From Alistipes sp. Marseille-P5061 (GTDB lineage: Bacteria > Bacteroidota > Bacteroidia > Bacteroidales > Rikenellaceae): a stretch of 64,000 bases of DNA. Below, in pieces: positions 35,997-61,995 of this stretch. The notes beneath the pieces were generated by a model. That model was given only the letters and a program-made list of their open reading frames with translations. It ran no database searches and had not been told where the DNA came from. A program made the translations under genes and the position numbers. The stretch lies in the NCBI RefSeq assembly GCF_900290115.1, contig NZ_LT985748.1, forward strand, positions 191,120 through 255,119, given 5' to 3'. How positions within the stretch are numbered: position 1 is the stretch's first letter; each line of letters starts with the position of its first letter.

Positions 35997-36084
35997 GAAA
36001 ATATAAAAAGATGAGTTCGATCGGAAAAATTACCGGGACAGTCTGCCGATTGACTCATAATGACGGTATTAAACGACTGTCCCT

Positions 36085-36366: not shown

Positions 36367-36693
36367 TCACTCAGGGACGTAGATGATCTCACCGTTTTCG
36401 AGCTCGTAGGCTACGCCAACCTTGCGGCCTCGCTTGCCGCTCTGAGAATCCTGATCCTCCGAAGGAGTATAGCGGTTGATCTTCTCACCCTCCTTGGTGA
36501 TGATCTCCATGTTCTCCTTGCCGGGGTTCTTCACCATCGTGAAATCCTCCTGGCTGAACACCTCGGTCATATTGTATCGGCTCACCAGCGCCACCATCAG
36601 CGCCACGGCGAAGACCATCGCCACGTCGAACAGGTTGCCGACGACGCTCATCGGGTCATTCTCCCCGTCGTGCTTCAGTAAATTGCGTCTCAT
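36367..36693 (-). CDS. hmuV: HmuV-like DUF2149 membrane protein
   Basis: 108 residues. One N-terminal membrane helix (VVGNLFDVAMVFAVALMVAL), then a small soluble domain with the DUF2149 pattern KVGVAYELENGEIIYVPE. In the Porphyromonas gingivalis hmuYRSTUV operon the last gene encodes this kind of protein; together with the ExbB-like HmuU it is thought to act as an accessory energising unit (ExbD/TolR-like position). Starts overlapping the hmuU stop by 4 bases. Confidence 0.85.
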   Translation of the reverse strand: MRRNLLKHDGENDPMSVVGNLFDVAMVFAVALMVALVSRYNMTEVFSQEDFTMVKNPGKENMEIITKEGEKINRYTPSEDQDSQSGKRGRKVGVAYELENGEIIYVPE

Positions 36694-37292: not shown

Positions 37293-37296
37293 GGTT

Positions 37297-37995
37297 TTAT
37301 TTCTGTTTTTTATTCATAAGTTTCTGTTTGATGCGGAAAACCGCCATGCCAAGCAGCAATCCAGCAGCGACAAAGGCCATCACTCCACCCAGAGACGGCC
37401 AGTCGACAGCTGTGATACCGGCAACGGCCGTGCGGCCGTTGACCGTGGCGATGACGCCCAGAATGGCAATCAATGCATTGGCAAGGAAGAGCAGTTCAAG
37501 GCGGATCTCCCGTTCGGGCAGGAGGTGCTTCAACGCCCAACGCCCCAGAGGAATCACCGCCGCCACAACCGCGGCCAGCGACCAGGCAACCAACGGAAAC
37601 GACATCCCGGGAAGCGAGAAGATGGCGGCAACCAGCAGGCTGAACAGCACCGGGAAAATGAGCAGCCCCGGGAACCAGCGCAGCAGGCGGTAGAGCCACA
37701 CGACGGAGGGTTTTACGCGCCCCGCCGTGTGGATGTGTGCCGCAACGACACAGAAGGTCATCTGCAAGGCGACCTCCAGCGTGAGGAGAACCGCCAGGTC
37801 GAGCATCAGCGCGGAGTCGGCGAGCCAGTCCGCAATCTGGTTTTTCGACTGCTCGATGGCCCAGGGCCACGCCAGTCCGACGAACAGGGCGCAGACAACG
37901 GCCGAAAGGGCTACAAACCGGGGCTTGCGCCAGGTCTGCTTCAACAGGTAGTTGAAGCAGACCACAATCATCATGACCAATACGACGGTGTCCAT
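37297..37995 (-). CDS. hmuT: HmuT-like polytopic membrane protein
   Basis: 232 residues from ATG at 37993-37995 (MDTVVLVMMIVVCFNYLLKQ). About seven hydrophobic helices, including LLIFPVLFSLLVAAIFSLPG and ELLFLANALIAILGVIATV. No catalytic motif recognised. Its place between hmuS and hmuU, with its ATG overlapping the hmuS stop, makes it the HmuT counterpart, which could carry heme or its products across the inner membrane. Confidence 0.8.
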   Translation of the reverse strand: MDTVVLVMMIVVCFNYLLKQTWRKPRFVALSAVVCALFVGLAWPWAIEQSKNQIADWLADSALMLDLAVLLTLEVALQMTFCVVAAHIHTAGRVKPSVVWLYRLLRWFPGLLIFPVLFSLLVAAIFSLPGMSFPLVAWSLAAVVAAVIPLGRWALKHLLPEREIRLELLFLANALIAILGVIATVNGRTAVAGITAVDWPSLGGVMAFVAAGLLLGMAVFRIKQKLMNKKQK

Positions 37996-40900: not shown

Positions 40901-42257
40901 TTGCTTCAGCGGTCCACGCGGCGTACTCCTCGGAGGAGATGAGCGCCGGTTGGCCCTTTTTCAGAAATTCGGCCTTGGCTCCGTGGGCATAGTCGTTGAA
41001 AACGGCCCCCTGTTGCTGGATGAGGGCTGCCAACCCCTCGGGCGTCGAGGGGAGACGCTCCACGCGGTAACCCTCGCTGCGGAGCCGCACGAGCAGGTTG
41101 TAGAGCGATGGCGTGACCTCCATGCCGGAGGCCGTCAGGACATTCTGCCCGGGGCCCTTGTAGTAGTAGATTGCTACGCGCTTTTCGCTGTTGGGCATGC
41201 GTTGCAGGGCGATGTGGCGATTCACCGTCTCGACGAACCGGTCCAGTCGTTCGGGAATGGCATGGACCTGCTGCAGCCCTTCGCCGTCGAGGCGGTGACC
41301 GAACAACACCTGGGAGCGGATCGCTCCGTCAATCTCGGGCATCACTACACTCTGCGACAGGAAACCGCCGTTCATGCCCATCTTGTCGGCCTCCCATTCG
41401 TCGACCATCCGGTTGACGTTCAGCGGCGAGAAGAGCGGAATGTTCTGGCGCGTCAGGTACTCCACAATGGCATCGCCCAGGCGTCCGTGGGCCATGTTGA
41501 TGACGGCCGACGGACGGATCGAATCGGCCTGTCCGCTCTGAATCGCCGCCTGCAGGTTGCGGAGGGGATAGACCGCGTTGCCGGTCTCCTCGAGCCGGGC
41601 AATCAGTTCAGCCGGTTCACCCATCTGTCCCGTCACGATCACCCGCGGAGCATCCGCTTTCAGCAGGCCGTGCCGCGCGAGGAAGGCCTCGTAGGCCTCC
41701 ACGCTGTCGAAATCCAGCTCCTCCGCCTCGGGATCCGACGGATTGGCGTGGTAAAATTGCCGCAGGTCGCGTACGACGGGCGGCTCGGGCTCATCCGTAT
41801 CGAACCGCTTGCCGTCGACCGTGCGGCGCAGGGTGACGAGCAGGTTGCGGTAGTTCTTCCGGCCGCCGCCGCTGAGGTAGCCCTTGACGGCAGCCAGCGT
41901 CGCGGAGTCCGCCGAGATGATCTCGTTGGCCGGGTTGGTCGCCATGGTCGTGATGACCGTAAGCCCGCGGTCGGCGGCCCGTTGGAGTGCGGCCCGCTGC
42001 TCGGCCGTGATGCGGAGCCCCATGCCGTTCATCAGCACCACGTCGTAACGGCCCAGGCGGTCGAACTCCGACGGTTCGACCGAGGCAAGACGGATCCGCG
42101 CATGGTCATTGGCCCGGGCGATCTGGCCGAGCGTCGTGGCCTGGTAGTTCACGAAGGCGATGCGCGTGGCCGAGAACCAGTGGTTCCACGCTGCGACGCC
42201 CAATAGGACGGCAAGCAGGATCACGCCTGCCCAGATTATTGGTATCTTCTGTTTCAT
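37995..42257 (-). CDS. hmuS: HmuS-like CobN/magnesium-chelatase-family protein
   Basis: 1420 residues, CobN-type chelatase fold throughout. An N-terminal signal anchor (IIWAGVILLAVLLGVAAW) and a C-terminal helix (NTVVAVLVIGLIAVLVLVV) followed by RRRRKK suggest anchoring of a large periplasmic domain. Recognisable blocks are VHFGTHGSLEFTPRKQVALS (CobN HxxLE-type), YSIGNVGEGMIAKRRAYATL and RVFGGVNGNYGTGITGMV. No chlI/chlD-type ATPase genes are adjacent. In Bacteroides and Porphyromonas the heme operon homolog HmuS has been reported to take part in removing iron from heme. Directly after the TonB receptor gene (3 bases). Confidence 0.93.
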   Translation of the reverse strand: MKQKIPIIWAGVILLAVLLGVAAWNHWFSATRIAFVNYQATTLGQIARANDHARIRLASVEPSEFDRLGRYDVVLMNGMGLRITAEQRAALQRAADRGLTVITTMATNPANEIISADSATLAAVKGYLSGGGRKNYRNLLVTLRRTVDGKRFDTDEPEPPVVRDLRQFYHANPSDPEAEELDFDSVEAYEAFLARHGLLKADAPRVIVTGQMGEPAELIARLEETGNAVYPLRNLQAAIQSGQADSIRPSAVINMAHGRLGDAIVEYLTRQNIPLFSPLNVNRMVDEWEADKMGMNGGFLSQSVVMPEIDGAIRSQVLFGHRLDGEGLQQVHAIPERLDRFVETVNRHIALQRMPNSEKRVAIYYYKGPGQNVLTASGMEVTPSLYNLLVRLRSEGYRVERLPSTPEGLAALIQQQGAVFNDYAHGAKAEFLKKGQPALISSEEYAAWTAEAIPAERMEEVVALDGPFPGHYLSDDEGRLALPRIELGNIVLLPQLAAGAGDDDFAIVHGTDAAPPHAYIASYLWARYAFRADAIVHFGTHGSLEFTPRKQVALSRNDWPDALIGATPHLYVYSIGNVGEGMIAKRRAYATLQSYLTPPFMESGVRGIYRELNAAIQAYNDLLYTDGQPDTRAAALRVKRLTVELGIHRELRLDSLLTEPYTEAEIARIETFAEELAAEKITGELYTMGQPYSPGRIRSSVFAMSTEPIAYSLLALDKFRGQTSADLEKHRTLFTRRYLEPARELVGRLLSGTQQPTDAFICSTAGISAAELEKAREIQRSLTAPQEMMARMMAMASSSSPMQHPAGTSKSGKGAPKHPSWIPKVGKRPANAGPSEEKKPAAMPADAMAAMMGLGKEYTKEEREFARVVTELERTIRNVGNYRHALEESPEAELSSLTSALNGGYTAPSPGGDPIANPNTLPTGRNLYAVNAEATPSERAWERGRELADETIRLYRERHHDSLPRKVSYTLWSGEFIETEGATLAQVFYMLGVEPVRDVFGRVSDLRLIPSEELGRPRIDVVVQTSGQLRDLAASRLFLISRAVEMAAAAKDDRYENFVTRGVVDAEQALIDKGLSPREAREISTRRVFGGVNGNYGTGITGMVQSGDRWENSSEIAAVYLQNMGAYYGSEQAWEQVQQYALEAALVNTDAVVQPRQSNTWGALSLDHVYEFMGGMNLAVRNVTGREPDAYLSDYRNRNRVRMQELKEAIGVESRTTIFNPNYIRAKMQGGASAAAGFAAVVQNTYGWNVMKPDVVDNELWDEIYDVYVQDKFGMGLRGYFERQNPAALEEISAVMLETARKGMWQASDEQLAALAALHTELVDKHGPSCSGFVCDNAKLRDFIASKSAPEAARNYQRQIREVREVSLDTNAGTVLKREEFTASDRTTTLVSNTVVAVLVIGLIAVLVLVVRRRRKKMEE

Positions 42258-42260
42258 CCT

Positions 42261-44408
42261 TTATTTGCTCTTGAAAAATTGTTCGAGATTCAGCGAAAGG
42301 CCCACCGAGCAGGTCGTACCGACGGTCGTGGGCGAGTTGCTGTAATAGTAGTCGGGGCGGTAGTTGAAGAGGTTGTCCACGGCCAGCGTGAGGTCCATCC
42401 CGCGCCACAGATGCTGCGTGAGGCTCAGTTTCCAGATCGTGTAGCCCGGATAGGTCTGCCGCACGGTCTGCTCGTAGGAGGTCACCTCGGTATAGACGTC
42501 GCACGTGACTGCCGACAGCCAGCGTCCCGACAGCGACACATTCAGACCGTAGTTCTTCCACTGCTTGTCATAGGCCAGGCGCGCTGTGGCCGCATGGGGA
42601 CGGGTCGAGGAGAGCAGCGGCTGTCCCCGCTCGATCATCTCGCGCGTGTAGGCATACGACACGCGCCACGAGATGCCGCACGTATATCGTCCCGACGCAT
42701 TGGCCTCGGCTCCGGCCACCTGCAGAGGCGACATGTTCGTGTAGACCTGCCCGTCAAGCTCCTGGTTCCAGACCGTGGTGATCCGGCTGTCCACCAAATT
42801 GTAGAATCCCGTTACGGTGAAACTGTGCTGTCCTTTCAGATACTCAGCCGAGAGTGAAAAGTTGTGGCTCGTCTCGGCTTTCAATTCCGGATTTCCGTAG
42901 ATCATGAAGATATTGCCCATATAGAAGTCCATGTACATCTCCTTGAGGGTCGGGGCACGGAATCCGCCTGCGTATGATGCCCGAAGCGAGCAGTTTGCAA
43001 CCTTATACATCACGCCGAGTTTTGGCGAAAGGTGCGAGAGGTTTGCCGCCGAAAAATGGTCGAAGCGCAGGCCCGCAATGAGGTTGAACCGCCGGTGCGG
43101 GTTCCAGTCGAACTGCGCGAAGGCATCGGCCGTATGCTGCGTATGGCTGCCGTTGTCCGTAAACTGGTAGGACATCAGGTAGTCACGCATGTAGTCGCCG
43201 CCGACGGTGAGAATATGTTTCCCGGCAAAGGTATGGTTGTAGAGCGTGCGCAGGGTGTGCTGTACGTTGCTGTAGTCGCGTACGTCGCGTGACGTGGGGA
43301 CCAGATAGTCGCTTTTGTCATACTGGTCAAAGGCATAGGAGAGTTCCAGATCATCGGACGGCGTAATCGCCCAGTTGCCCTTCAGTCCGCCCGAGAAGCT
43401 GCGGTAGCGGTCCTTGATGCTCTCCGAGGCGTCGCGCTCGCGGAAGAAATATCCCGCCCGGGCCGTGAACTTCAAGCCTTCGGTCGCCGTGACGACGAGC
43501 CGCTCCTTGATATTGAGCGCCGTGTGTCCGTAGATGGTGCTGTAATCGCCCACCTCCGCGTTGTCGGTCCCCTTCGAGAGGTCGATGGCGTCAATCGAGG
43601 TGTACTGCACGTTGGTCGTCGAGTTGAACCGGCCCTGGTTGAATCCGACCGATCCTCCGTAACGCTGCTCGTTGTGGGCACCGTAACGGCCGTTCAGATT
43701 GACCGACCACGGCTCCCGCGATTCGCGGCTGATGAGGTTCACCACGCCGCCGATGGCATTCGATCCGTAGAGCGATGAAACGGCCCCCTTGACGATTTCG
43801 ATGCGCCCGACATTGTCCAGGTTCAGGCGGCTGTAATCGACGTTGTCGAGCGTTTCGCCCGCCAGGCGCTCACCGTCGACGAGGAAGAGCACCGAATTGC
43901 CGCCGAATCCCGACATGTTGAGCGAAACCTGCTGGTTCATCGAGTAGGAGAACTCGATGCCCGGCAGTTCGCTTTGCAGCAGGTCGCCGACATGCGTCGC
44001 ATCGACCTGTTTGATATCGGCCTCGGAGATGACACGGGTGACAATCGGGACATCCTTCAACAGTTTCGGGGTGCGTGTGGCCGTCACCACCACCTGATCC
44101 ATCATCGTGGAGCGCTCCGCAAGCCGGAAATTCAAGGGCCCGGTCTGGCCGGCAGCGATCTTTTCGCTGGCCGGTTCGTACCCGACAAACGAGGCGCAAA
44201 GCGTATACGTCTCTTTGCCTGGAAGCGTAATTTCATAGTGTCCCTCCGTGTCGGCCACGGTACCGAGCGACGGCTGCTCCTTCACGGTAACGACGGCCCC
44301 GGCGAGCGGCTGCCCCGCAACATCCGAAACCGTGCCGGATATTTTGTATTGGGCCTGCGTCTGCAGCGTAAACAGCAATCCGAAAAGAGATAGTACCAGC
44401 AGTTTCAT
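42261..44408 (-). CDS. hmuR: HmuR-like TonB-dependent heme receptor
   Basis: 715 residues. Signal peptide (LLVLSLFGLLFTLQTQAQ), CarboxypepD-like domain to about residue 95, plug domain with QVVVTATRTPKLLKDVPIVT and GNSVLFLVDGERLAGETLDN, then a 22-strand-type barrel ending in SVGLSLNLEQFFKSK. Receptor for heme handed over by HmuY. The gap to hmuY is 2 bases. Confidence 0.92.
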   Translation of the reverse strand: MKLLVLSLFGLLFTLQTQAQYKISGTVSDVAGQPLAGAVVTVKEQPSLGTVADTEGHYEITLPGKETYTLCASFVGYEPASEKIAAGQTGPLNFRLAERSTMMDQVVVTATRTPKLLKDVPIVTRVISEADIKQVDATHVGDLLQSELPGIEFSYSMNQQVSLNMSGFGGNSVLFLVDGERLAGETLDNVDYSRLNLDNVGRIEIVKGAVSSLYGSNAIGGVVNLISRESREPWSVNLNGRYGAHNEQRYGGSVGFNQGRFNSTTNVQYTSIDAIDLSKGTDNAEVGDYSTIYGHTALNIKERLVVTATEGLKFTARAGYFFRERDASESIKDRYRSFSGGLKGNWAITPSDDLELSYAFDQYDKSDYLVPTSRDVRDYSNVQHTLRTLYNHTFAGKHILTVGGDYMRDYLMSYQFTDNGSHTQHTADAFAQFDWNPHRRFNLIAGLRFDHFSAANLSHLSPKLGVMYKVANCSLRASYAGGFRAPTLKEMYMDFYMGNIFMIYGNPELKAETSHNFSLSAEYLKGQHSFTVTGFYNLVDSRITTVWNQELDGQVYTNMSPLQVAGAEANASGRYTCGISWRVSYAYTREMIERGQPLLSSTRPHAATARLAYDKQWKNYGLNVSLSGRWLSAVTCDVYTEVTSYEQTVRQTYPGYTIWKLSLTQHLWRGMDLTLAVDNLFNYRPDYYYSNSPTTVGTTCSVGLSLNLEQFFKSK

Positions 44409-44410
44409 CC

Positions 44411-45064
44411 TTATTCAACGGGATAGAGGTAGTCAATGGTCATGTAACCCTTTACGGCGGCGTCGTTCATGAAGTTTGCGAGGCGCAGGGCCGCACAGGT
44501 ACCGTCCTTCAGACGAAGCAGATAGATCTTCCCCGAGAGGGTGTAGATTGGCGGCATGGTCGAGGTGTCTACATTGAGCCAGCGCGAAAGAGTGGGGTTC
44601 CAATAATCCTCGGCATAGAGGATGATGCCGTCCATCATCTGCGACATGTCAATCGTAATGCGGTCGGTGGTCCACTCGTCAGCGGCCCATTGGTCTTCGG
44701 CGACAGTCCCGGGAGCGGGAAGCGCATCGAAAGACCCTGCCTGGCTTTCCCAGACGGTGCCGCCGTTGGTCTTCGTGTCGTATCGGTGTACGGCAAAATC
44801 CCACGTTTCGGGAGCCGCTTCACCCACCGGTGTCGTTGTTACCTGTTTGCCGTGCAAATCGACATAATGCCATTCGGTATAATCCGTGGCGTCGATATAG
44901 ATCCGTCCCGTGCGGGTTCCTTCGTCGATGAGGATAAACCCATATTCGTTCCCGGTCCCGGATGTGGGCATATCATAGATACCCTCGAAGATGCCGTTGC
45001 AGGCCGGGAGCGACAGCAGCAGTGTCGCTCCCGACAGGAACAGCCCAGCCTGTTTGCAGTTCAT
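44411..45064 (-). CDS. hmuY: HmuY-family heme-binding lipoprotein
   Basis: 217 residues from ATG at 45062-45064. Lipoprotein signal SGATLLLSLPACNG, followed by the HmuY pattern RIYIDATDYTEWHYVDLHGK, ETWDFAVHRYDTKTNGG and MDGIILYAEDYWNPTLSRWL. HmuY proteins are surface or released hemophores. The heme-ligand His or Met cannot be assigned by eye. It follows the tandem calycin-like gene by about 25 bases. Confidence 0.88.
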   Translation of the reverse strand: MNCKQAGLFLSGATLLLSLPACNGIFEGIYDMPTSGTGNEYGFILIDEGTRTGRIYIDATDYTEWHYVDLHGKQVTTTPVGEAAPETWDFAVHRYDTKTNGGTVWESQAGSFDALPAPGTVAEDQWAADEWTTDRITIDMSQMMDGIILYAEDYWNPTLSRWLNVDTSTMPPIYTLSGKIYLLRLKDGTCAALRLANFMNDAAVKGYMTIDYLYPVE

Positions 45065-45089
45065 GGCCAATCTCGCTTTTTCCGTAGAG

Positions 45090-45917
45090 TTACTCTTCCG
45101 TGGCGGGAGCCGTTCCCGGCAGCAGCGTGATGGTCAGTCCGCCCATGACGGCCGGTACGTTGAACGCAATCGAGAAGTCGTCCTTGGCGGCATTTGTGCG
45201 GCCACTGAGCGTGAAGTCGTAGTTGCTGGTCGAGTCACCCATTCCCATGGCCACGCTGCCGCTGCCCGTAAAGACGTACTCTTCGCCCTCTTTGGTCGCA
45301 GTGGCCGACTCAACAGTAAAGGTTCCCCACGAGGCGGATTCGAAGACAACCTTCAGAGTTCCGTCGCCGTTGGCCGTCAGTTTTACGCTTTCGCCATCGG
45401 TATAACGATCCTGGAACATCGCACAGTCGGCATCCGTATATCCTTCGTAGGTTCCGGCCAGCAGCAGGTCGGCCGGGGCTTCTCCCGTCTGGAACGTAAG
45501 GGTCATGCCGCCCATGACGGCCGGTATCGAAAACTCCATCCGGGCATCGGTCTGTGACTTGATCTCGGCCGTGAAAGTGCAGTCGTAGGCCGAGGTGCTT
45601 CCACCCATGCCCATCTGCGTCTGCCCGCTGCCCGAGAGTGTGCAGAGGTCTCCGTTTACAGTCGCCTGTGCATCGGTGATGGTGAATGTACCCCACGTGG
45701 CGGAGGTGAACGATACGGAGGCGGTGCCGTCCGTGTTTTTCGTGAGGACGACGGTCTCATCCGCCGAGATCATGTTCTGGAAATAGTTGCAACTGGCCAG
45801 CGTATAGCCGTTGTAGCGGCCTGCAAAGTCGACCGTTTTCGAACCGTTTTCATCCTTGTCACACGCCATCATAAAGACTGCGGCGGATAACATCATAAGT
45901 ACAGATTTGATTTTCAT
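45090..45917 (-). CDS. Tandem calycin-like lipoprotein at the head of the heme operon
   Basis: 275 residues from ATG at 45915-45917. Lipoprotein signal VLMMLSAAVFMMACDKDE. The rest is two copies of one calycin-like (lipocalin-related) domain: repeat 1 at about residues 30-140 and repeat 2 at about 150-265. Matching blocks include GRYNGYTLASCNYFQ/GTYEGYTDADCAMFQ, SGSGQTQMGMGGSTSAYD/TGSGSVAMGMGDSTSNYD and FSIPAVMGGMTLTF/FNVPAVMGGLTITL. The repeated MGMG loop is a possible ligand site. Not part of the classical hmuYRSTUV set; likely a surface binding protein for heme or a related ligand. Confidence 0.8.
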   Translation of the reverse strand: MKIKSVLMMLSAAVFMMACDKDENGSKTVDFAGRYNGYTLASCNYFQNMISADETVVLTKNTDGTASVSFTSATWGTFTITDAQATVNGDLCTLSGSGQTQMGMGGSTSAYDCTFTAEIKSQTDARMEFSIPAVMGGMTLTFQTGEAPADLLLAGTYEGYTDADCAMFQDRYTDGESVKLTANGDGTLKVVFESASWGTFTVESATATKEGEEYVFTGSGSVAMGMGDSTSNYDFTLSGRTNAAKDDFSIAFNVPAVMGGLTITLLPGTAPATEE

Positions 45918-45943
45918 AGGGCTGATTGTTATTTTTCCGGGAG

Positions 45944-45974
45944 CAAAATTACTGGAGTTGTTGTGGTCGGGCAA
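45944..45974 (-). promoter_or_regulatory. Predicted promoter of the heme operon
   Basis: TTG (45972-45974), 20 bases, then TAATTTTG (45944-45951) on the minus strand: full match to the Bacteroidetes consensus in sequence and spacing. The start codon is 27 bases from the -7 element. Confidence 0.75.
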
Positions 45975-46027
45975 TACCTACTTTTTATGATTTATTATAG
46001 CCTGTTCTTGATGTATATTAGGTATTG
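45972..46027. repeat. 9-bp inverted repeat over the heme-operon promoter
   Basis: CAATACCTA (45972-45980) and its exact complement TAGGTATTG (46019-46027) are separated by 38 bases of AT-rich DNA. The inner arm covers the -33 element, so it could be a repressor site (for instance for Fur). Confidence 0.55.
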
Positions 46028-51180: not shown

Positions 51181-51211
51181 CAAAGGAAGTAGGTCGCCGA
51201 GAAATATCAAA
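51181..51211 (-). promoter_or_regulatory. Predicted promoter of the TetR operon
   Basis: TTTG (51208-51211), 19 bases, then TTCCTTTG (51181-51188), one mismatch to TAnnTTTG. Confidence 0.55.
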
Positions 51212-51286
51212 TACCCATTTTTTAGGATTTTTGCTTTTAATGGAAGCAAGGTACAGCCGATTAGCAAGCGCTATGATGAGTGATAG

Positions 51287-51986: not shown

Positions 51987-52979
51987 TTAGTAGGTGTTGG
52001 TCATCTCTTCGGGGACGCAAATGTAGAAATCTGCACGTCCGTATTGCCCCTCGGAGAGCTTGTCGATCTCCGACTGTCGGACCGAGGCGATTGTGACCAC
52101 CTGCGTGCCGGGTCGATAACGCTCCAGGTAGGCGATGATACCGTTGTGGAAGTCGGAGTGGAAATTGCCGTTGAAGTGAAGAAATTGGCACCCCTCCTTC
52201 AAATTGCGGGAGATGAACCAGGCCATGGTAGCATCCTTGACAGCCTGAGCCTCGGCCAGCCGACGTGTGTCGCTGCCGTGTCCAAGCATGGCCATCATGC
52301 CGAAAGCAGCCTGACTCTGCTCTTCGTCATATTCGAAGGGTATGGGCAGCGGAGCTAGGTAGCGTTTGGCCTCATCGGAGAGCGAATCGAGGATGCCGAG
52401 ACCGTGGTTGCGGACACTGTTGGCATAGCGCCGCGGAACGTTCGTGGCCACGAACGGAATGCCATGCTCCTTGGCAAAAAAGACGATCGGATGATAATCC
52501 GTCTCGTAATTGTCCCACAGCCGGGCCTCGGCGCCGAAACGGTCTGGCGAGATGAGTCGTTGCATATATTCATCGAGTATCAGCTGGATGTCACTTTCCA
52601 ACATCTCGGCGCCCATAACCAAACTATTGCCGTGGCGTTCGTAGAGTGCTTGGGCAATCTTCAGTTCGAGCCAGTGGGTGATCGGGCAGTTATGGACCTC
52701 GCCAACGAAGACCACCTCGCTCGGTGCAAGCAGATTGATCAACTCCGCAAAGGTGATTTCACGGCCCGCAGCATCGAAAAGTGCATAGGCACGCAACTCT
52801 TCTGTCTGAGGTTCGACTTTCGATACTTTCTGCGCCTCCTCTGCGGTGTACGTCTCGGGGGTATGAACAGAACCTGGCTCTTTCGACCTGTCGCTATCCT
52901 GGTGAGGGGTCCCGGAAACCGTTCCGGCAGATGCCAGGAACATCATGCTCAATAGCATGTTAACGATCGGACGTGTCAT
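51987..52979 (-). CDS. ChaN-family iron/heme-associated protein
   Basis: 330 residues with an N-terminal export signal (MLLSMMFLASAGTVSG). ChaN-domain blocks are VVFVGEVHNCPITHWLELKI (about 88-107), LVMGAEMLESDIQLILDEYM, FVATNVPRRYANSVRNHGLG and FLHFNGNFHSDFHNGIIAYL. Characterised ChaN-like proteins are iron-regulated and bind heme as dimers. It overlaps the end of the M16 protease gene by 20 bases, which implies coupled translation. Here it may hold heme freed by the protease. Confidence 0.88.
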   Translation of the reverse strand: MTRPIVNMLLSMMFLASAGTVSGTPHQDSDRSKEPGSVHTPETYTAEEAQKVSKVEPQTEELRAYALFDAAGREITFAELINLLAPSEVVFVGEVHNCPITHWLELKIAQALYERHGNSLVMGAEMLESDIQLILDEYMQRLISPDRFGAEARLWDNYETDYHPIVFFAKEHGIPFVATNVPRRYANSVRNHGLGILDSLSDEAKRYLAPLPIPFEYDEEQSQAAFGMMAMLGHGSDTRRLAEAQAVKDATMAWFISRNLKEGCQFLHFNGNFHSDFHNGIIAYLERYRPGTQVVTIASVRQSEIDKLSEGQYGRADFYICVPEEMTNTY

Positions 52980-55827
52980 CTTTCAGTTTTTCTTTGCTCA
53001 AATACAACAATACGTAATATTCCGGATCGAGGAGTTGCGAAAAGGATTCTCGCAACTCTGCGGGGGTAATGGTTTCGAGGATCCGGTCGTACTCCTCGAA
53101 ATCGGAAAGCGTCTCCCCATTCCGAATAATGCCCACCAGAACGTTTCGCCAGTTCGATGCGGCATCGTCGGTCAGCGTTTCTCGTTTGGCTATTTGGAAG
53201 GAACGTTTGAGATTTTCCAGCTCTTGAGCCGGAACCTCCCGAATCTGCAGATCGGTGATGATCGTGCGCAGCAGCGTGTCTATGGCCGGCATGTTGCGGT
53301 TGTCGGCTGAAGCATTGATGTCGAAACAGAAACTGCGTGTTGGAATGCCTTCGTAGAAGAGAGCAATATAGGGTGAATAGACCAGCGACTCCCGCTCTCG
53401 AAGAATGGAGATTAATCGGTTGCGCAGAATGTCTCGCATGAGCTTGAGTTTCAAACTGCTGCGCAGTGATGGTTCGTAATATCCCGGATAGATGTAATCG
53501 AACAGGGTCTGGGTTTCGTTGTCGTTATCGAACCCTTCGACCGACCGTTGTCCCGGGAGATGGTGCTGCCGATATCCGAACTCGGGACCGTAGGCTTGAG
53601 CCAGGATTGGAGCAAATGTGGCGGCAAACTGGGTCAAAAGCGTATCGGGATCAAATTCTCCGGTAATTACCGCGCAACTCCCTTCTGTCGGGGTGTAGAG
53701 TCGATGATAGAATGCCGCGATGCTGTCGAGATTGAGTCGTTGGGCAATCACCTTGTTCGAGAGCTTCGTGGCGTGACGCGGAATGGCCGATCCGGTGAGT
53801 TCGTCCATGCGTGCCGAAAGTTGACGGTCGGAGGCACGTTGCAGCATACGGCTCAGCAGCGACTCCTCCTCCTTTTCCTGAAGCATTTCCTGGCGGAGCT
53901 CCTCGAATTCGTCGTATCTGAGTTCCGGATCGAAGATCTTTTCACGGATCAGGTTGAAGAATACCGGTGCGGTCTGAGCCGGGGTCGTGCCGATGAATCC
54001 GTGCCAATGGTTCTCCAGCGTCATCGACAGCGCGATGTCGTTTTGGTAGAGGTATTCCGAGAGCTTTTGCTGGTCGGCCTTGGCGATGCCGCCCATTTCC
54101 AGGTACCCGGCTGTCCCTTCGAGCAGCGGGTATTGATCGTCGGGGATCGCAGAGGTGCCATAGGGGGCGATCAGCGTGAAGAGCACATTGCCGCCTCCGG
54201 GCGTGGGACGCATGATGACCCGCATGCCGTTCTGCAGAACGGCTTCGCGAACGCCGAGACCGGGGTATTCCCGGGTCGAGACGATTATGGCCTGATCGAA
54301 CGGCGGCCGGACGGCCAGACAGTTCGGAGTCTCGATCGGAATCTCTGTTTCGCTGCTTTCCCGCGGCTCATAGACATAGCGCTTGCAGGGAGTTGCCGCA
54401 CCCTTGTGCCAGGCATCGTCGACCTCTTCGGCTGTCAGCGGGGCTCCGAGTCCCGGATGGCTGTGGCAGGCGATTCGGGCTACGGAGTCGTAACCGGCCA
54501 GGCGTTGGCGGAGCATCTCCTGCAGCAGTGCGCCGGGCGTTGCCGCCACGGAGTCGATGATCCGGCGGTAGAGGAGCGTGTCTCGGATCGTGCGGTCGCC
54601 GGCCAGGATGTAATCCGCGAAGTCGTCGCACCAGGCCGAGGAGCTTTGCGGGGCATCGACCTCGAAGTGCGCCATCCGGTTGCAGCGGCGAGTACGGATA
54701 TCGGCGAGCTCTGCCTCATTCCAGCCGACCGTTACCAAATCGTGCAGGGCCGAGGAGAGATGCGCAAGAGCGTCGAGCAACTCTTCGCGCGAAGAACCGG
54801 CCGTTGTCACCGTGAAGTGGCTCTTGTCGCTCAGATACCACGTGTCGGAGATCGTCGTCCGGATGTCGCGGCCGCGCATCCGGGCCGAGACGGCCTCGAT
54901 GAGCAACTCCTCGCGGGCTTTGGCCACGGCGTCGTTCAGCGTTCGGACCGTGATGCTCCGGTGGGGGATCATCACCTCGAGTTGAGTGCGGTTGTAGAGC
55001 GAATCGCGGATCTCGAACACTCGGGTTCCCGGGGTGTATTCGAGCGGATAAACCTTGAAGTCGCGGGCCTTACGGGGGGGGAGCGATGAGAATCGTTCGC
55101 GGATCTTACGCTCCAATTCCGCCGTGTCGAAGTCTCCCACGGCCACTATTGTCGCCAGTTCCGGCACATACCATTTCCGGTAGTAGTTTTTGAGTGTGGC
55201 CGGCGTGATGCGCCGGATGTCCCCGATCGTGCCGAGCGGCAATCGCCGGGCATGGATTCCCTCGCCGATTTTCAGATCGTAGAACGGGTCTCCAACATCG
55301 TATCCGCGTAACTCTTCGAGAATGATTCCGCGCTCGGTCTCAACCCGTTCGGGGCAGATTTTCAGTCCGTCCATCCAGTCGCGCAGGATCAGCAGAGCAC
55401 TGTCAATGACCCCTTTGCGTTGGGAGTCGGTCGGCACGGCGAAGAGGTAGATCGTGCGGTCTTGACTCGTAAAGGCGTTGATATCCACGCCGTACTTCAT
55501 TCCGAGCGTTTCGAGGTAGCTTTGCAGCGACTTGTCGGGGAAGTGACGCGAACCGCCGAAGGCGACGTGTTCCAGAAAATGCGCACAACCCGTCTCCCAA
55601 TCAAGCTCCTGGACCGACCCGGTCCTCAATACAAGTCGGAATTCGATGCGCGAGACCGGGATGTCATTTTGGCGAAGGATGTAGTGTAACCCGTTGGGGA
55701 GCACCCCTTCGCAGGTCCCCTGGGGCAATGGCAGAGGCTTCGGTTGAGCTTGTAATAAAGCCGGAAACAGGGCTGCCAGCATGCCAGCAGCCGAGTTCCG
55801 GATGATTATCTGAATACGTTCGCCCAT
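52960..55827 (-). CDS. M16-family zinc metalloprotease (insulinase/PqqL-like), periplasmic
   Basis: 955 residues, full two-half M16 architecture (active half about 30-470, inactive half about 500-930). The inverted zinc motif HFLEH is at about 81-86 in GCAHFLEHVAFGGSRHFPDK, with the third ligand region RGIILEELRGYD further on. Signal peptide AAGMLAALFPALLQAQ. A run of eight C (55074-55081, coding strand) interrupts the sequence near residue 248. E. coli PqqL, also M16, degrades imported ferredoxin for iron; the SusCD and ChaN neighbours suggest a comparable role on an iron or heme protein. Confidence 0.9.
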   Translation of the reverse strand: MGERIQIIIRNSAAGMLAALFPALLQAQPKPLPLPQGTCEGVLPNGLHYILRQNDIPVSRIEFRLVLRTGSVQELDWETGCAHFLEHVAFGGSRHFPDKSLQSYLETLGMKYGVDINAFTSQDRTIYLFAVPTDSQRKGVIDSALLILRDWMDGLKICPERVETERGIILEELRGYDVGDPFYDLKIGEGIHARRLPLGTIGDIRRITPATLKNYYRKWYVPELATIVAVGDFDTAELERKIRERFSSLPPRKARDFKVYPLEYTPGTRVFEIRDSLYNRTQLEVMIPHRSITVRTLNDAVAKAREELLIEAVSARMRGRDIRTTISDTWYLSDKSHFTVTTAGSSREELLDALAHLSSALHDLVTVGWNEAELADIRTRRCNRMAHFEVDAPQSSSAWCDDFADYILAGDRTIRDTLLYRRIIDSVAATPGALLQEMLRQRLAGYDSVARIACHSHPGLGAPLTAEEVDDAWHKGAATPCKRYVYEPRESSETEIPIETPNCLAVRPPFDQAIIVSTREYPGLGVREAVLQNGMRVIMRPTPGGGNVLFTLIAPYGTSAIPDDQYPLLEGTAGYLEMGGIAKADQQKLSEYLYQNDIALSMTLENHWHGFIGTTPAQTAPVFFNLIREKIFDPELRYDEFEELRQEMLQEKEEESLLSRMLQRASDRQLSARMDELTGSAIPRHATKLSNKVIAQRLNLDSIAAFYHRLYTPTEGSCAVITGEFDPDTLLTQFAATFAPILAQAYGPEFGYRQHHLPGQRSVEGFDNDNETQTLFDYIYPGYYEPSLRSSLKLKLMRDILRNRLISILRERESLVYSPYIALFYEGIPTRSFCFDINASADNRNMPAIDTLLRTIITDLQIREVPAQELENLKRSFQIAKRETLTDDAASNWRNVLVGIIRNGETLSDFEEYDRILETITPAELRESFSQLLDPEYYVLLYLSKEKLKDDTSDR
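55074..55081. repeat. Homopolymer of eight within the M16 protease gene
   Basis: Eight consecutive G on the given strand (CCC CCC CC in the coding strand, around LPPRK). A one-base slip would truncate the protein at about a quarter of its length. Confidence 0.8.
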
Positions 55828-55851
55828 GATTGTTTGGGGTTAACGGTGTTC

Positions 55852-57060
55852 TTATTTCGTGTAGGTGACGTGTACGATTGTATAGTCGCCGGCGTAGTAG
55901 TGGTCCATGACGAACTGGAAGGTCATCTCGCCCTTCTCGAAGTCGATATGACCCTTGCTCTCGATCCAGTTGCCGTTTCCGTAACCATCCTCGTTGATAC
56001 CGTAGGAGAAGAGATAGTAGGCCGGATTGGCGATTCCTCCCTGGTCGTAGATCTCCTGCATCTCGGCATCTCCCTCGTCGAGCAGTTTCTTTTGTCGATC
56101 CCAGGCCGAGAAGGAGTAACAGAACGGAACGACGGTCATCGGGTCGCCGTAGGAGTCCTCTACCTCACCGAGAATGTCGAGGTCAGCACTTGTTGCGGAG
56201 AGGTTCGTGCACTTGATTCCGTCGAGCGAGACGTTGAAGGTCTCTTCACTGGTCGGGGTCCAATCGATGATCTCCATCAGTTTTTTGTTGCTAGGAGAGG
56301 CGTAATCTTCATCCGTGCTATTCCAATATTCGTCATCATCGATGGTATTCTGACGAAAGACCCAGTAGAGGTGTTCGGTCAGTCCCATCGGATTGTCAAC
56401 CATCTTCAGTACGGGCTGCTCGGCCGTGGACTCCTCGCTGAGAGTGATGATCGTCTGACCCGGGATCTCCTCGGTCTTGGGGGTCGAGAAGTCGGTGGTC
56501 ATGCCGTTGCCCGGAATGTTGAGGGTCGTCGTGCACTTCATCACGCCGAGGAATTCGTAGAGGTCGATGCCGAACTTTTCCTTGTAGCCATCGATCAGCG
56601 TTTTCTGCTCCTCGGTCAGTTCGGGAATGGCTGGGTTGGGATTGACACGGATGCGCAGGGCCTCGGCAAGTTCCATGCCTGCGGGCAGCTGTGCAGCATC
56701 GATTCCCACGGTGATATAGGTGCTTTCCGTAAGGAGATTCTTGACGTTCGATACGACCTGGAAGGTGGCGCTCTTCTCACCGGCGGCGATCGTTACGGGG
56801 TTCCCCTCCAGGCTGAGCAGCTCCTGTGTGTCGTCCTCCAGACGGAAGGTCAGCGTCGTGGCCGTCTCGACGGTCGAGGTGAGCATCACTTCTACCTCAA
56901 GCGGTGTGGCATCTGACTCCACGATGACGGCATTGTTGTTTTCGGCCGTCAGATAGATCTTATTCGTACCGGAGTAACCGGTCTCTTTCTTCTCGTTGCA
57001 GGAGGTCATGGCAACGGCTGCCGTCAGCAGAACCCCCCCCCAGAAAAATAAGTGTTTCAT
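55852..57060 (-). CDS. Lipoprotein of the SusCD-M16-ChaN operon, unknown family
   Basis: 402 residues. Signal peptide with lipobox MKHLFFWGGVLLTAAVAMTSCNE. Residues 40-150 resemble a beta-sandwich (Calx-beta/DUF1735-like), e.g. VEVMLTSTVETATTLTFRLE and TIAAGEKSATFQVV. The rest has DGYKEKFGIDLYEFLGVMKC and YWVFRQNTIDDDEYWNSTDE and is not recognised. Probably surface exposed and part of ligand capture with SusC/SusD. A run of nine G sits in the signal peptide at 57033-57041, so it may be phase-variable. Confidence 0.75.
   Translation of the reverse strand: MKHLFFWGGVLLTAAVAMTSCNEKKETGYSGTNKIYLTAENNNAVIVESDATPLEVEVMLTSTVETATTLTFRLEDDTQELLSLEGNPVTIAAGEKSATFQVVSNVKNLLTESTYITVGIDAAQLPAGMELAEALRIRVNPNPAIPELTEEQKTLIDGYKEKFGIDLYEFLGVMKCTTTLNIPGNGMTTDFSTPKTEEIPGQTIITLSEESTAEQPVLKMVDNPMGLTEHLYWVFRQNTIDDDEYWNSTDEDYASPSNKKLMEIIDWTPTSEETFNVSLDGIKCTNLSATSADLDILGEVEDSYGDPMTVVPFCYSFSAWDRQKKLLDEGDAEMQEIYDQGGIANPAYYLFSYGINEDGYGNGNWIESKGHIDFEKGEMTFQFVMDHYYAGDYTIVHVTYTK
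57033..57041. repeat. Homopolymer of nine in a signal-peptide region
   Basis: Nine consecutive C on the given strand encode TGG GGG GGG G (Trp-Gly-Gly) 7 codons after the ATG of the lipoprotein. A slip here would abolish the protein. Confidence 0.85.
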
Positions 57061-57122
57061 TTTACGCTGTTTTTTAATGGTGAATATTCAACTATTTTGC
57101 CCGGTGCGGTTGCCCTGCCGGA

Positions 57123-58535
57123 TCAGTTTTCAATCTTGGGCCACCCCTCGTTCTGGGAGACGTTTTCGTTGTAGAAATACTCCTCCTGCGGAATGGGGAG
57201 TGTCCAACGGTAATCCGTTGCGTCGATGCGCTTGTCGCTGTTGCCCTGGCTCCAGGAAGAGAGCACCCCTTTACGGTAGTGCTTTAGGTCGAACCACCGC
57301 TCTCCCTCGCCGACAAACTCCTTCTGCTTCTCGGCAAGGATGGCACGCAACAGATTGTCGCCCGTAAGCGACTCGTCGAGCGGCTGGGCCTTGCGCCGTG
57401 TAAGGTATTCGTTGATCGCCGTGCGGGCTTCGCCGTCGTGGCTGCCCTGGAGGCAGTAGGCCTCGGCCAACACGAAGCAGGCCGTCACCGTGCGCAGTTT
57501 GTGGATGCACGAGATCTCCGTGGCGTCCCAGTTCATACGGTTGTATTTGCCCAAGCAGCGCATTGTGATCGTCTCGCCCACGGTTTCGCCCGGAAACTCC
57601 TTTGGATAGAGGCTCTCTGCGCCGCGCAGATCCTCCGCGTCGTAACTCCCCGCAAGGTCCTCGGAAACCTCCAGAAAATCGCCCTTTTCGGTGTCGTAAC
57701 GCAGATCCAGATAGAACGGGACGGTCGTGTGACGCGAGAAGAGGCTCTCGGGACCGGCTCCGCCGTTCCACAGCTGCCGGTAGTTCGTCTCCGTGAAAAG
57801 ATCGTACCCTCCAGCCGTGGTCAGCACGAGATTGGCCCACTCGACCGCCTTTTCATACTGCCCGGCATAGAGCTCCAGTTCGGCAAGCAGGCACCGCACC
57901 CCTTGCTGGGAAATCCAATAGGCTGTTTCTGGACTATTCTCCGTGGCAACGGCTTCAGTCAGCAGGGTGCGGATGTAGCTCACACAAGCATCGATGCTCG
58001 AACGGGGCAGGAATCCCAACTCGAACTGCTCCTTGAGGATCACCCCGTCGCGGCTGCCGCCCTCGGAGATGTCCGGGGCAAAAAGGCGCAGCAGGTCGAA
58101 GTAACAGTAGGCCTTCAGAGCCTTGGCTTCGGCATTCACAACCGCAAGGTTGGCCTGCTCGCTTTCGTTCTGCGGTGAGAGCGCAACCGTGCGTTCGAGC
58201 ACGGCATTGGCTATGGCAATCGATTCGTAGTAGCCCTGCCAGAGCGTGAGGGCTAGATTCGTCATGGGCAATGTTTGCCATTTGTAGAGGTTGCCCAGGT
58301 CGCTATTGCGCGAAATGAGCGAGGTGGTTTCGAAATCGTCGCTCAACACAGACAGTTCAAACTCCGGGTTGGGAAGTCGGTCGTAGGCCGAGGCCAACAA
58401 CTCACGGGCCGTCGTCACGGAGGTGATGGCCGACGGGTCGGAGAGCTGGTTTTCGTAAGGAATGTCCAGCGTGCAGGCCGAGCCGCCCACGGCGGCGAAA
58501 AGGACTGCAAGAGCGTATCGGAGAGTATTTCGCAT
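57123..58535 (-). CDS. SusD/RagB-type lipoprotein of the M16-ChaN operon
   Basis: 470 residues from ATG at 58533-58535 (MRNTLRYALAVLFAAVGGSAC). Lipobox GGSAC; helical SusD segments such as LTLWQGYYESIAIANAVLER, NAEAKALKAYCYFDLLRLFA and the diagnostic EKQKEFVGEGERWFDLKHYR. The C-terminus WTLPIPQEEYFYNENVSQNEG is typical. The ATG at 58544 is also in frame. Confidence 0.93.
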   Translation of the reverse strand: MRNTLRYALAVLFAAVGGSACTLDIPYENQLSDPSAITSVTTARELLASAYDRLPNPEFELSVLSDDFETTSLISRNSDLGNLYKWQTLPMTNLALTLWQGYYESIAIANAVLERTVALSPQNESEQANLAVVNAEAKALKAYCYFDLLRLFAPDISEGGSRDGVILKEQFELGFLPRSSIDACVSYIRTLLTEAVATENSPETAYWISQQGVRCLLAELELYAGQYEKAVEWANLVLTTAGGYDLFTETNYRQLWNGGAGPESLFSRHTTVPFYLDLRYDTEKGDFLEVSEDLAGSYDAEDLRGAESLYPKEFPGETVGETITMRCLGKYNRMNWDATEISCIHKLRTVTACFVLAEAYCLQGSHDGEARTAINEYLTRRKAQPLDESLTGDNLLRAILAEKQKEFVGEGERWFDLKHYRKGVLSSWSQGNSDKRIDATDYRWTLPIPQEEYFYNENVSQNEGWPKIEN

Positions 58536-58548
58536 GGTCGTCATCGTG

Positions 58549-61500
58549 TCAGAAGGTGAGACTGAGGTTGAAGGTCAGTACGGGTTGCATCGTCCCGGCT
58601 AGTGATCCGGTTTCGGGGTCCGACTCCTTGTAGGGCGTGATCATGAAGAGGTTCGAGGCCTGGAACGCCACACTGGCATACTTGATCACCCCGCCGCAGT
58701 TGCGTTCGAGCCACGCCGAGGAGAGCCGGTAACGAAGCGACAGCATCGACATCTTGAAGTAGTCGCTCTTGCCGACTGTCATCGTATTGGCGTAGTTGAG
58801 CGAGGCGATTGCCGAGGAGCTAAAGAAGGGCGAGTGGTAGATCTTGTCCTCGTCGCCGCGCTTAAACCACATGTTGTCGACCTGACCGCGGATCGCATTC
58901 TTGTTGGCGTCGTCCGTGCTGCGGACATAAGTGTAGTTGTAGGGGCGCACGCCTCCGAAGACATAGTAGAAGTCCATGTCCAGATCAAAACTGCGGTACG
59001 ACAGACTCACGTTGATCGATCCGCTGTAGGGCGGCGTGCTGTGACCCAATGCCACGATATTCTCTTTGGAGGGGGTCTCCGTGGCGGGAATCTCGCGACC
59101 GTCAGCCCCTCGGAAAACCGGAAGTCCCGTAATGGGATCAATCCCCAGCGACTCCAGACCGTAAAGCATGTCGTACGCCTTTCCCACTTCGTAGTCGGGT
59201 ATGATCGACTCGGCGTTGGCGTAGATCCGGTCGGCATAGTACAGGTCCATGACCTTGTTCCGGTTGTAGGCCAGCGATCCGCGCAACCACAGACGCCAGG
59301 GATCACGATCCACAACCTTGACCGAGGCGGAGAGTTCGTATCCTTCATTCCGCAGTACGCCGATGTTGCGCAGCATGGTCGAGAACCCGTTCGAGAGGGG
59401 GATGGGGACCGACAGCAGCGCATCCTCGGTATCCCGGCGGTAGAAGTTCACGCCGAAAGTCACTCGCTTGAAGAGTTCGAGCGAAAGCCCCGCATCGATT
59501 GATTCGGTCTGCTCGGGCTTGAGGTCCGTATTATAGAAGGCCAGGAGCTCCAGCAGACGGGCATCTCCATAGAAATCCGTCGAATAGGAGAAGGTTCCGA
59601 TTGCCGAAGCCGAGGATACGCCGGCCAGATTGGCCATCTTGCCATACGAAGCCTTGAGGTTGAGTGACGTGATGACACGGCTGTCGCGCAGGAATCCGTA
59701 GCGGGTCGGCGTCCAGCCCACACCGACGGCCCAGGCGGCGTTCCACCGCTTGTCGGCCGGGAGGATCGACGAGGCGTCGATCTTGTAGGTGGCAAACAGG
59801 TCGTAAGTCGAGTCGAACGAGTATCCGAACACCAATCCGAATCCCATCTGGGCACTCTTCTCCTTGAGTGAGCCGACCGATGGTTTGCGGTTGCCGGTGA
59901 TCGACTGGTTGATGGCCGCCGGTGACATCTGCGTACCGACGCCGTAGCCCGTGATCGAGACGTTGTCCTGATCCGTCAGGTAGTAATCCATGTTGCCGCC
60001 GACGGTCAGGTCGTGGCGTTCCGCAAAGACCCGATTATATGTCAGACGGATGTTCGACGACACGTTGGTCGTAACATTTTTGTTCTTGGTCAGACGACCC
60101 CGTTCGTTGATGGCCGCGCCCGACTTGCGCTCCTCAATCGAGGTCGAGGGCAGCAACGTGAGACCTTCGTCCAACATGAAATCCACACCCGCTACGGCAT
60201 CGACGTCGAGACCTTCGACCGGGTGGAGGTTGAGCGATCCGCTTATGCCGGCATGCTTGTCGGTGGATTTGCTCTGGTATTGGCTCAGCAGGTCGTTGTA
60301 GGTGTACTCCGAGGATTCGTTCGAGAAGGAGACCAGCGGGCTGGTTTTGGTCTCGTACGAGTTGAGCTGATAGACGAGGTCCGTCGGCGAGAAGGAGCTG
60401 CCGTTCGGGGTGTTCGTGATCGAGTATCCGGCGTCACTGGCCAGCGAGAGGTAGCCCCAGCGGCCCAGTCGTTGATCGAGGCTCATGCGTGTGGAGATGC
60501 GCTGTACGTCGTTGCCCGGGACGCGGCCGCCCTGCTGCGAGTAGTTGGCCGAGATGAAATAGGAGGTGTTTTCGTTTCCGCCGCGGATGCTGAGGTTGTG
60601 GCGCTGGTAGATGTTCGGGCGGATGAGCTCGCGGAACCAGTCGGTGTTGATCCCTCGCAGCGAGTCGAGCACGCGGGCCCCCTCGGCGATCATTTCGGTG
60701 AGACTCGGATCGTTGGGGTAGTATTTGCGGTAATAGTCGGCGCTGTAGCGATACCCGGGGGTAGATGGGTTTTGCAACAGACGTTCGAGCTCCAGCTTTT
60801 CGTCGCTCTGCATCATCTCCACGCCGCGGCGACCGCGCAGGGTGATGCCGATGCTGAAGTCGTAGTTAACTTTGAGTACTCCATCGGGATTTCCCCGTTG
60901 GGAGGTAATTTCGATGACTCCATTTGCGGCTTTTACGCCGTAGAGGGCGCATGCCACAGCATCCTTGAGGACCTTGATCTCTTCGATGTCGGCAGGATTG
61001 AGCGTTAGAAAGGCATCCGAAGAAATGATCTGTCCGTCCATGACGTAGAGGGGTTCGTTGGCCGTATCTCCGGCTCGGAACGATGAGTTCCCGCGCAGAC
61101 GGATCTGCGGTTTGGATCCCAGATCGCCCGTATTGGTTACGATGAGTCCAGGCACGGCACCCTGCAGGGCGAGCGACATGTCGATCATCGGTTTGTCGTT
61201 CAGACGTTCCATGTCTACGCGTTGTACGACGCCCGATTTGGCACGGATGTCGATTTCGTTGATGTTGCGGCGGGCAACCACGACCACTTCACTCACATCG
61301 GTAGCATCCTGCTGCATGGCGGCATCCTGAACTATCTGTCCGGTATACTTTACAGATACTTCCTTCATGCCGATGAAGGTGAAGAGCACGATGTCTCCCA
61401 TGGCCCATTCTCCGCGCAACGTATAGTGCCCGTTGGTGTCGGTAACGGTTCCCTGCATGGTACCTTTGATGCGTACGGTGGTGCCCGGAAGGGGTTGCCC

Positions 61501-61629
61501 GTGGTTGTCGGTGACAGTGCCGCTCAACTCGCAATGTTGCTTGATAGTTTTTTCTTGAGCCCAGCTACCCATGCTTGGCAACACTAGCAGTATCCAGGAG
61601 AAGAGAATTGCGAGGTAATGTTTTTTCAT
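58549..61629 (-). CDS. SusC/RagA-type TonB-dependent transporter of the M16-ChaN operon
   Basis: 1026 residues. Signal peptide to about 25, carboxypeptidase-like domain (LSGTVTDNHGQPLPGTTVRI), TonB-linked VSEVVVVARRNINEIDIRAK, plug with IEEIKVLKDAVACALYGVKA, and a large barrel ending VLTFNLSLTF. SusC/RagA transporters with RagB partners import peptides or proteins in Porphyromonas; the protease downstream makes a proteinaceous cargo plausible. It has its own promoter. Confidence 0.94.
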   Translation of the reverse strand: MKKHYLAILFSWILLVLPSMGSWAQEKTIKQHCELSGTVTDNHGQPLPGTTVRIKGTMQGTVTDTNGHYTLRGEWAMGDIVLFTFIGMKEVSVKYTGQIVQDAAMQQDATDVSEVVVVARRNINEIDIRAKSGVVQRVDMERLNDKPMIDMSLALQGAVPGLIVTNTGDLGSKPQIRLRGNSSFRAGDTANEPLYVMDGQIISSDAFLTLNPADIEEIKVLKDAVACALYGVKAANGVIEITSQRGNPDGVLKVNYDFSIGITLRGRRGVEMMQSDEKLELERLLQNPSTPGYRYSADYYRKYYPNDPSLTEMIAEGARVLDSLRGINTDWFRELIRPNIYQRHNLSIRGGNENTSYFISANYSQQGGRVPGNDVQRISTRMSLDQRLGRWGYLSLASDAGYSITNTPNGSSFSPTDLVYQLNSYETKTSPLVSFSNESSEYTYNDLLSQYQSKSTDKHAGISGSLNLHPVEGLDVDAVAGVDFMLDEGLTLLPSTSIEERKSGAAINERGRLTKNKNVTTNVSSNIRLTYNRVFAERHDLTVGGNMDYYLTDQDNVSITGYGVGTQMSPAAINQSITGNRKPSVGSLKEKSAQMGFGLVFGYSFDSTYDLFATYKIDASSILPADKRWNAAWAVGVGWTPTRYGFLRDSRVITSLNLKASYGKMANLAGVSSASAIGTFSYSTDFYGDARLLELLAFYNTDLKPEQTESIDAGLSLELFKRVTFGVNFYRRDTEDALLSVPIPLSNGFSTMLRNIGVLRNEGYELSASVKVVDRDPWRLWLRGSLAYNRNKVMDLYYADRIYANAESIIPDYEVGKAYDMLYGLESLGIDPITGLPVFRGADGREIPATETPSKENIVALGHSTPPYSGSINVSLSYRSFDLDMDFYYVFGGVRPYNYTYVRSTDDANKNAIRGQVDNMWFKRGDEDKIYHSPFFSSSAIASLNYANTMTVGKSDYFKMSMLSLRYRLSSAWLERNCGGVIKYASVAFQASNLFMITPYKESDPETGSLAGTMQPVLTFNLSLTF

Positions 61630-61810: not shown

Positions 61811-61841
61811 CAAAAGTACTTTCAAGGGAAAAGAGAAACAA
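61811..61841 (-). promoter_or_regulatory. Predicted promoter of the SusCD-M16-ChaN operon
   Basis: TTG (61839-61841), 20 bases, then TACTTTTG (61811-61818) on the minus strand, a perfect -7 match at proper spacing. It gives a 5' leader of about 175 bases. The 8-mer TAGGTATT, also in the heme-operon repeat, lies just upstream (61852-61859). The rest of 61630-61995 shows no gene. Confidence 0.75.
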
Positions 61842-61995
61842 TCCCGAGTTTTAGGTATTTTCCAGTATCATGAGAGTTCTGCTTGCATAATAAAAACGGA
61901 GTTCCCTGTGAGCCTGAAATTCTCGTCAATATTCCCATCGATAACCTTGGATTCTTTCGTTGGCAGAGACTGTTATTGAAAGTGATATGGTTAAT

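Follow-up and report, generated by a model that had tools for sequence, protein, structure and literature searches.

The 64-kb stretch of DNA analysed here (the window) carries, on its minus strand, a cassette of five genes that we read, with moderate confidence, as encoding an iron-repressed, protease-coupled SusC/SusD importer that brings an iron- or heme-bearing protein or peptide across the outer membrane, with a ChaN protein handling the cofactor. The genes encode, in order, a 1026-aa SusC/RagA-family TonB-dependent outer-membrane transporter (58549..61629; Plug and CarboxypepD_reg in Pfam, and TIGR04056), a 473-aa SusD/RagB-family surface lipoprotein (57123..58544; SusD_RagB and SusD-like_3), a 402-aa DUF4929 lipoprotein (55852..57060; E 1.6e-114), a 955-aa periplasmic two-half M16 metalloprotease (52960..55827; Peptidase_M16 and M16_C) and a 330-aa exported ChaN protein with an EreA/ChaN/Tiki-type fold (51987..52979; Cofac_haem_bdg/ChaN, E 1.1e-57). 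A first-pass annotation had placed these genes in this order within 51987-61629, and the ORF positions and Pfam identities agree with it. The successive intergenic gaps are 4, 62, 24 and −20 bp, with chaN overlapping the M16 gene by 20 bp, and are compatible with a single transcript for all five genes.

SusC scores 551.7 bits against NCBIfam TIGR04056 (OMP_RagA_SusC; cut-off 368). Its solved matches are all of the SusC/RagA type and RagA is the nearest solved relative, which makes the earlier description of the importer as RagAB-like a fair one. The nearest solved SusD-family chains to SusD are 3MCX and 3MYV, with RagB also matched, and the adjacency of the SusC/RagA and SusD/RagB genes, 4 bp apart, is that of a SusC/SusD importer. 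The third protein matches DUF4929 (PF16283) over its full length, at 383 bits and from profile position 1 to 374 of 374, above the cut-off, and its lipobox Cys21 is invariant in the 17 sequences aligned; it is a probable surface substrate-binding subunit. DUF4929 is rare: among sampled genomes it passes the curated threshold in 7 of 393 from the order, 3 of 200 from the family and 2 of 396 from the phylum, counts that include the window's own genome, and a literature search found no paper naming it. A profile search of the PDB returned weak matches only, mostly to an N-terminal Ig/Calx-like part, and, for the C-terminal part, no relative of known structure; structures predicted from two input sequences were unusable (mean pLDDT 36 for DUF4929 and 43 for ChaN). 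At two loci (L015:3801-5686 and L047:15509-17402), genes for an ECF sigma factor and a FecR-type anti-sigma factor lie ahead of a longer SusC of ~1104 aa, which probably has an STN domain, and the operator described below sits between the sigma gene and FecR (Pfam/NCBIfam identities checked for L015). This arrangement suggests cargo-sensing in addition to iron control.

The best solved matches to the M16 protein are 9LDY (1.8e-60), PqqL (2.9e-41) and FusC (5e-32), and its periplasmic location follows from a signal peptide judged by eye. The HxxEH motif (H83-x-x-E86-H87) is invariant in all 18 aligned M16 proteins, window included, as is Glu165 downstream of it, and an active protease would therefore be expected. 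The ChaN protein scores 196 bits for the Cofac_haem_bdg domain, for which the curated cut-off is 27.7. Tyr65, Glu94, His96, Glu125, Tyr162 and His274 are invariant in the cassette ChaN proteins and identical in Campylobacter jejuni ChaN (2G5G), Asp249 is likewise common to both, and overall sequence similarity to the C. jejuni protein is weak (phmmer E 0.096). C. jejuni ChaN reportedly binds two cofacial hemes through a Tyr, and the site is said to combine this Tyr ligand with His/Lys contacts to the propionates; Tyr65, Tyr162, His96 and His274 are conserved as candidate heme-site residues. A ChaN-like fold also serves as a hydrolase in the Ere enzymes, with a residue set of E47/H50/E78/H289 in EreC (PMC7979712), so that the cassette ChaN may, judging from its residues, either bind heme or act as a hydrolase. 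Given these hydrolase-like relatives, and the presence of ChaN proteins in 148 of 295 sampled genomes of the order, ChaN alone is no proof of heme. At the 30 best-scoring ChaN loci inspected, all of them elsewhere than in the cassette, no M16 gene lies within ~1.5 kb. At locus L017 the M16 and ChaN proteins form a single ORF of 1252 aa.

In the regions surrounding other DUF4929 genes, the order SusC-SusD-DUF4929-M16-ChaN recurs at 17 loci. Together with the window these represent six families, namely the window's own (L014, L022 and L023, all of its genus), f107 (L015, L016, L046, L047 and L048), f29 (L018, L019, L049 and L050), f88 (L035, L036 and L037), and f9 and f121, the last two represented by one cassette locus each (L017 and L027, respectively). 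The proteins of the most distant loci are ~25-40% identical to those of the window, and gene order has thus been kept across large divergence. A recurrence on this scale is not a chance association. At one of these loci (L046:12545-13762, genome G1060), an additional 405-aa ORF, transposase-like by eye, is present between the DUF4929 and M16 genes.

In two genomes the cassette is joined to genes for heme utilization. In G087, SusC-SusD-DUF4929 is located directly behind hmuS-T-U-V in the hmuSTUV operon, with M16-ChaN as an overlapping pair on a separate contig, whilst in G987, hmuS-T-U-V-SusC-SusD-DUF4929-M16-ChaN are nine consecutive genes on one strand, SusC overlapping hmuV by 4 bp and the CobN, ExbB-like and DUF2149 identities confirmed by Pfam. 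In G1060 the hmu locus is ~12 kb from SusC. In these split and merged forms the importer half is linked to heme handling and the M16 protease stays with ChaN. HmuS is absent from the four f29 genomes examined and from G943, and the f29 genomes carry the cassette without HmuS or HmuY, so the coupling to HmuS is not universal, two families besides the window's having the cassette but no HmuS. At three f29 loci, a fused hemerythrin-LuxR gene lies just downstream of ChaN (Pfam checked for L019).

The window itself also contains a heme operon, at 36367..45974 on the minus strand, that encodes a calycin-like protein, HmuY (44411-45070), HmuR (42261-44408), the CobN-like HmuS (37995-42257) and, by resemblance to L036 proteins, HmuT (37297-37995), the ExbB-like HmuU (36690-37292) and the DUF2149-like HmuV (36367-36693). 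The first-pass annotation had described the cassette as next to a complete heme operon; hmuYRSTUV is indeed complete but is 6-15 kb away and is a separate transcription unit, with genes for a TetR protein, a methyltransferase and two ABC proteins in between. Proximity to hmu in the window was dropped as evidence, as the congeneric locus L022 has different neighbours on both sides. The protein that heads the HmuY operon (45090-45974) has a duplicated calycin-like domain and is possibly an additional heme-binding lipoprotein. Two inverted IS copies, 99.7% identical and each encoding a 470-aa transposase, enclose the region that holds the hmu, ABC and SusC-ChaN genes (34377-36089 on the plus and 61992-63705 on the minus strand), one ending ~360 bp before SusC. 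No clear target duplication was found at these IS copies; the region between them could be mobile as a composite unit or be able to invert.

A conserved element was first seen on comparing SusC leaders within the genus. A pattern search of three genomes found further copies in front of FeoAB and a hemerythrin-LuxR pair, with 0 matches for the reversed control, and a palindrome, AATACCT-N6-AGGTATT, emerged from further sites. With two or fewer mismatches allowed there are 25 matches in 778 kb of loci, as compared with 0-11 (median 4) for 39 shuffled-half-site controls, although the 25 include coding matches and two apparent feoAB operators (in G546 and G559) that were later discarded because they fall inside the coding sequence of a small histone-like ORF. 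The final position weight matrix (PWM), built from six sites, all in FeoAB leaders, was tested on 18 cassette leaders and 113 control leaders; at 12 bits or more it has matches in 10 of the former and 7 of the latter. The threshold was chosen after a first version of the PWM, which contained one coding-DNA site and was used at 13 bits, had also found 10 leaders. None of 1000 column-shuffled PWMs reached 10 cassette leaders (mean 0.22, maximum 7), a comparison that overstates the significance because loci are related within families. The matches come from three families (f1, f107 and f88), and the scan found no operator in the leaders of f29, G943, L017 and L022. The seven control matches comprise two divergent neighbours of SusC that have its site in common, a pair with a single site between them in L048, and one match each ahead of HmuR (G1060), of the M16-ChaN pair that is split off in G087, where the possible operator is 66 bp upstream, and of the TetR/ABC operon of the window. 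The L048 site (L048:17975-17994) is a near-perfect operator between divergent genes, one of them permease-like by eye, and is a candidate member of the regulon.

Within the window, the highest-scoring site, at 18.6 bits, is in the SusC leader (AATACCTAAAACTCGGGATT, 61840..61859, minus strand), where it lies over the −33 region, and a Bacteroidetes-type −7 box (TACTTTTG, 61811..61818, minus strand) is positioned 21 nt behind it. The second (15.3 bits; 51210..51229, minus strand) is in the leader of the TetR-methyltransferase-ABC-ABC operon and the third (11.4 bits; 45973..45992, minus strand) in that of the calycin-HmuY-HmuR-HmuS-T-U-V operon, with a TAATTTTG box 21 nt downstream of it; the next site scores 7.2 bits. 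Both operons would thus appear to belong to the same regulon as the cassette. In 8 of the 10 cassette leaders with a match, TAnnTTTG, which we take to be the Bacteroidetes-type promoter box, is exactly 21 nt downstream of the operator, whereas in random leader positions it occurs at offsets 20-22 in 1.4%. This spacing is seen in the window, L014 (where the site scores 10.1 bits, below threshold), L023, L015, L016, L046, L047, L037 and L028, and places the operator over the −33 region, a position that would suit a repressor. A second promoter-like box, TATATATTTGC, is conserved near SusC in L014, L022 and L023 and has apparently been deleted in the window's genome (~61730-61790). Scans for sigma-70 promoters and terminators gave chance-level results.

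The sharing of the operator by feoAB, hmu and the cassette supports iron control. In G000 the hemerythrin-LuxR pair also carries the operator, and its counterpart in B. thetaiotaomicron is up 16-20-fold in low iron (PMC10434189). Iron depletion of B. thetaiotaomicron induces the hmu genes, an adjacent TetR/TonB/ABC locus and the hemerythrin-response regulator pair (PMC10434189), matching three gene types that carry the operator here. The link to iron proposed in the first-pass annotation thus appears to hold, as judged by the operator common to the feoAB and hmu leaders and by the two genomes in which cassette genes have joined the hmuSTUV operon. As a candidate regulator, PgMntR of P. gingivalis was considered and rejected: the paper describing it detected no binding to the feoB1 promoter, and no sequence like the operator turned up on searching that paper's text.

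A literature search returned no paper on the five-gene set, in line with the earlier view that no characterised system has exactly this composition. The cassette has the SusC/SusD architecture of RagAB from Porphyromonas gingivalis; to our knowledge the characterised RagAB system has no linked M16, DUF4929 or ChaN, and we know of no role for it in iron acquisition. The cassette ChaN is in the same Pfam family as C. jejuni ChaN, with identical conserved Tyr, His and Glu positions, but is genetically tied to, or fused with, an M16 protease. With HmuYRSTUV and its de-chelatase HmuS (PMC12583661) the cassette appears to share an operator and, in two genomes, the SusC-SusD-DUF4929 genes share an operon with the hmuSTUV part; HmuY and HmuR, however, handle heme, whereas the cassette employs a SusCD pair and a protease. 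Also among the closest known parallels are the Fus and YddB-PqqL systems (PMC6793856, PMC6071955), which also combine a TonB-dependent transporter with a linked periplasmic two-half M16 protease that has an HxxEH motif, PqqL and FusC being among the best matches given above, and which are regulated by iron, as the shared operator suggests for the cassette. They differ from the cassette in that its transporter is a SusC/RagA protein with a SusD lid, with no FusA/YddB homologue, in that it adds a DUF4929 lipoprotein and ChaN, and in that its hosts are Bacteroidota; FusA homologues have been reported in Proteobacteria, with SusC treated as a distant family (PMC6793856). As the transporter that defines the Fus system is FusA/YddB and here it is SusC, the cassette is, as classified by its sequences, a SusCD-based variant of protease-associated import and not a Fus homologue, although by analogy it probably works like the Fus system. 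The first-pass annotation had cited E. coli PqqL as a protease that digests ferredoxin, which proved mistaken; when tested, PqqL cleaved neither ferredoxins nor globins, and it is FusC, from Pectobacterium, that digests ferredoxin (PMC6793856).

From these features we infer a cargo, a direction of transport, a proteolytic step, heme handling and a repressor. At the cell surface, the DUF4929 and SusD lipoproteins would bind the cargo, either a protein that carries iron or heme or a peptide from such a protein, and SusC would move it across the outer membrane with energy from TonB. The two-half M16 protease would then digest the polypeptide in the periplasm. ChaN, in partnership with M16, would receive or process the cofactor set free in this way, most likely heme, and the cofactor could then join the HmuS/FeoAB route where present. 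A metal-responsive repressor probably binds AATACCT-N6-AGGTATT over the −33 region and so co-controls feoAB, hmu and the cassette. Uptake of a protein or peptide that M16 then cuts in the periplasm is plausible; RagAB, the nearest solved SusCD pair, takes up oligopeptides, which calls for caution over the entry of a folded protein. A fuller version of this scheme, in which SusC/SusD imports a partly or wholly intact hemoprotein with DUF4929 as its receptor, M16-ChaN is a heme-liberating unit, the operator is an as yet unnamed iron operator that also governs feoAB and hmu, and the system is the first in Bacteroidota to couple a protease to iron-protein import, is put forward tentatively.

A heme-bearing cargo is the best guess on account of the hmu links, with an iron protein that lacks heme as a real alternative. 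The same iron-regulated importer might take up a non-heme iron protein or peptide, for instance a ferredoxin, a rubredoxin or a ferri-peptide, with ChaN as an esterase- or peptidase-like hydrolase that finishes the digestion. This is rather unlikely in our estimation, but it would account for the cassettes in f29 genomes without HmuS or HmuY, for the resemblance of the ChaN Glu/His residues to the catalytic set of the Ere fold (EreC, PMC7979712) and for the M16-ChaN fusion, which fits two successive hydrolases, and FusC, a matched M16 relative, does digest ferredoxin (PMC6793856). Heme is favoured instead by the joining to hmuSTUV in two genomes, by the operators ahead of HmuR and in hmu leaders, by the heme binding of C. 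jejuni ChaN and by the conservation of the Tyr/His heme-site candidates.

Two further readings separate the protease from iron-protein import. The cassette could be a general RagAB-type oligopeptide importer, in which M16 trims peptides for amino acids, ChaN is incidental and iron control is indirect, as would be consistent with RagA as the nearest relative of SusC, with RagB among the matches to SusD and with the digestion of peptides by M16 family members. An operator in common with feoAB and hmu, the fusion and co-inheritance of ChaN with M16 and the operon shared with hmuSTUV make this improbable. Lastly, the cargo could be free heme or a small heme or iron chelate, with M16 used otherwise, for example to process DUF4929 or an imported inhibitory peptide. 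In G087, SusC-SusD-DUF4929 is in the hmu operon with no M16 beside it, and SusCD could there replace an HmuR-like function; G087 nevertheless retains a paired M16-ChaN with its own possible operator, and M16 is retained in all 18 other loci, so that we give this reading very little weight.

Protease-coupled import of iron proteins has been described in Proteobacteria (PMC6793856, PMC6071955). If the iron-repressed, protease-coupled importer proposed here is correct, heme-requiring commensals of the gut and related Bacteroidota could use dietary or host hemoproteins through a SusCD-based version of this process, and DUF4929 would gain a function and the M16-ChaN pair a role. With the operator in hand, the iron regulon of these bacteria can be approached computationally and iron control of the cassette can be tested directly.
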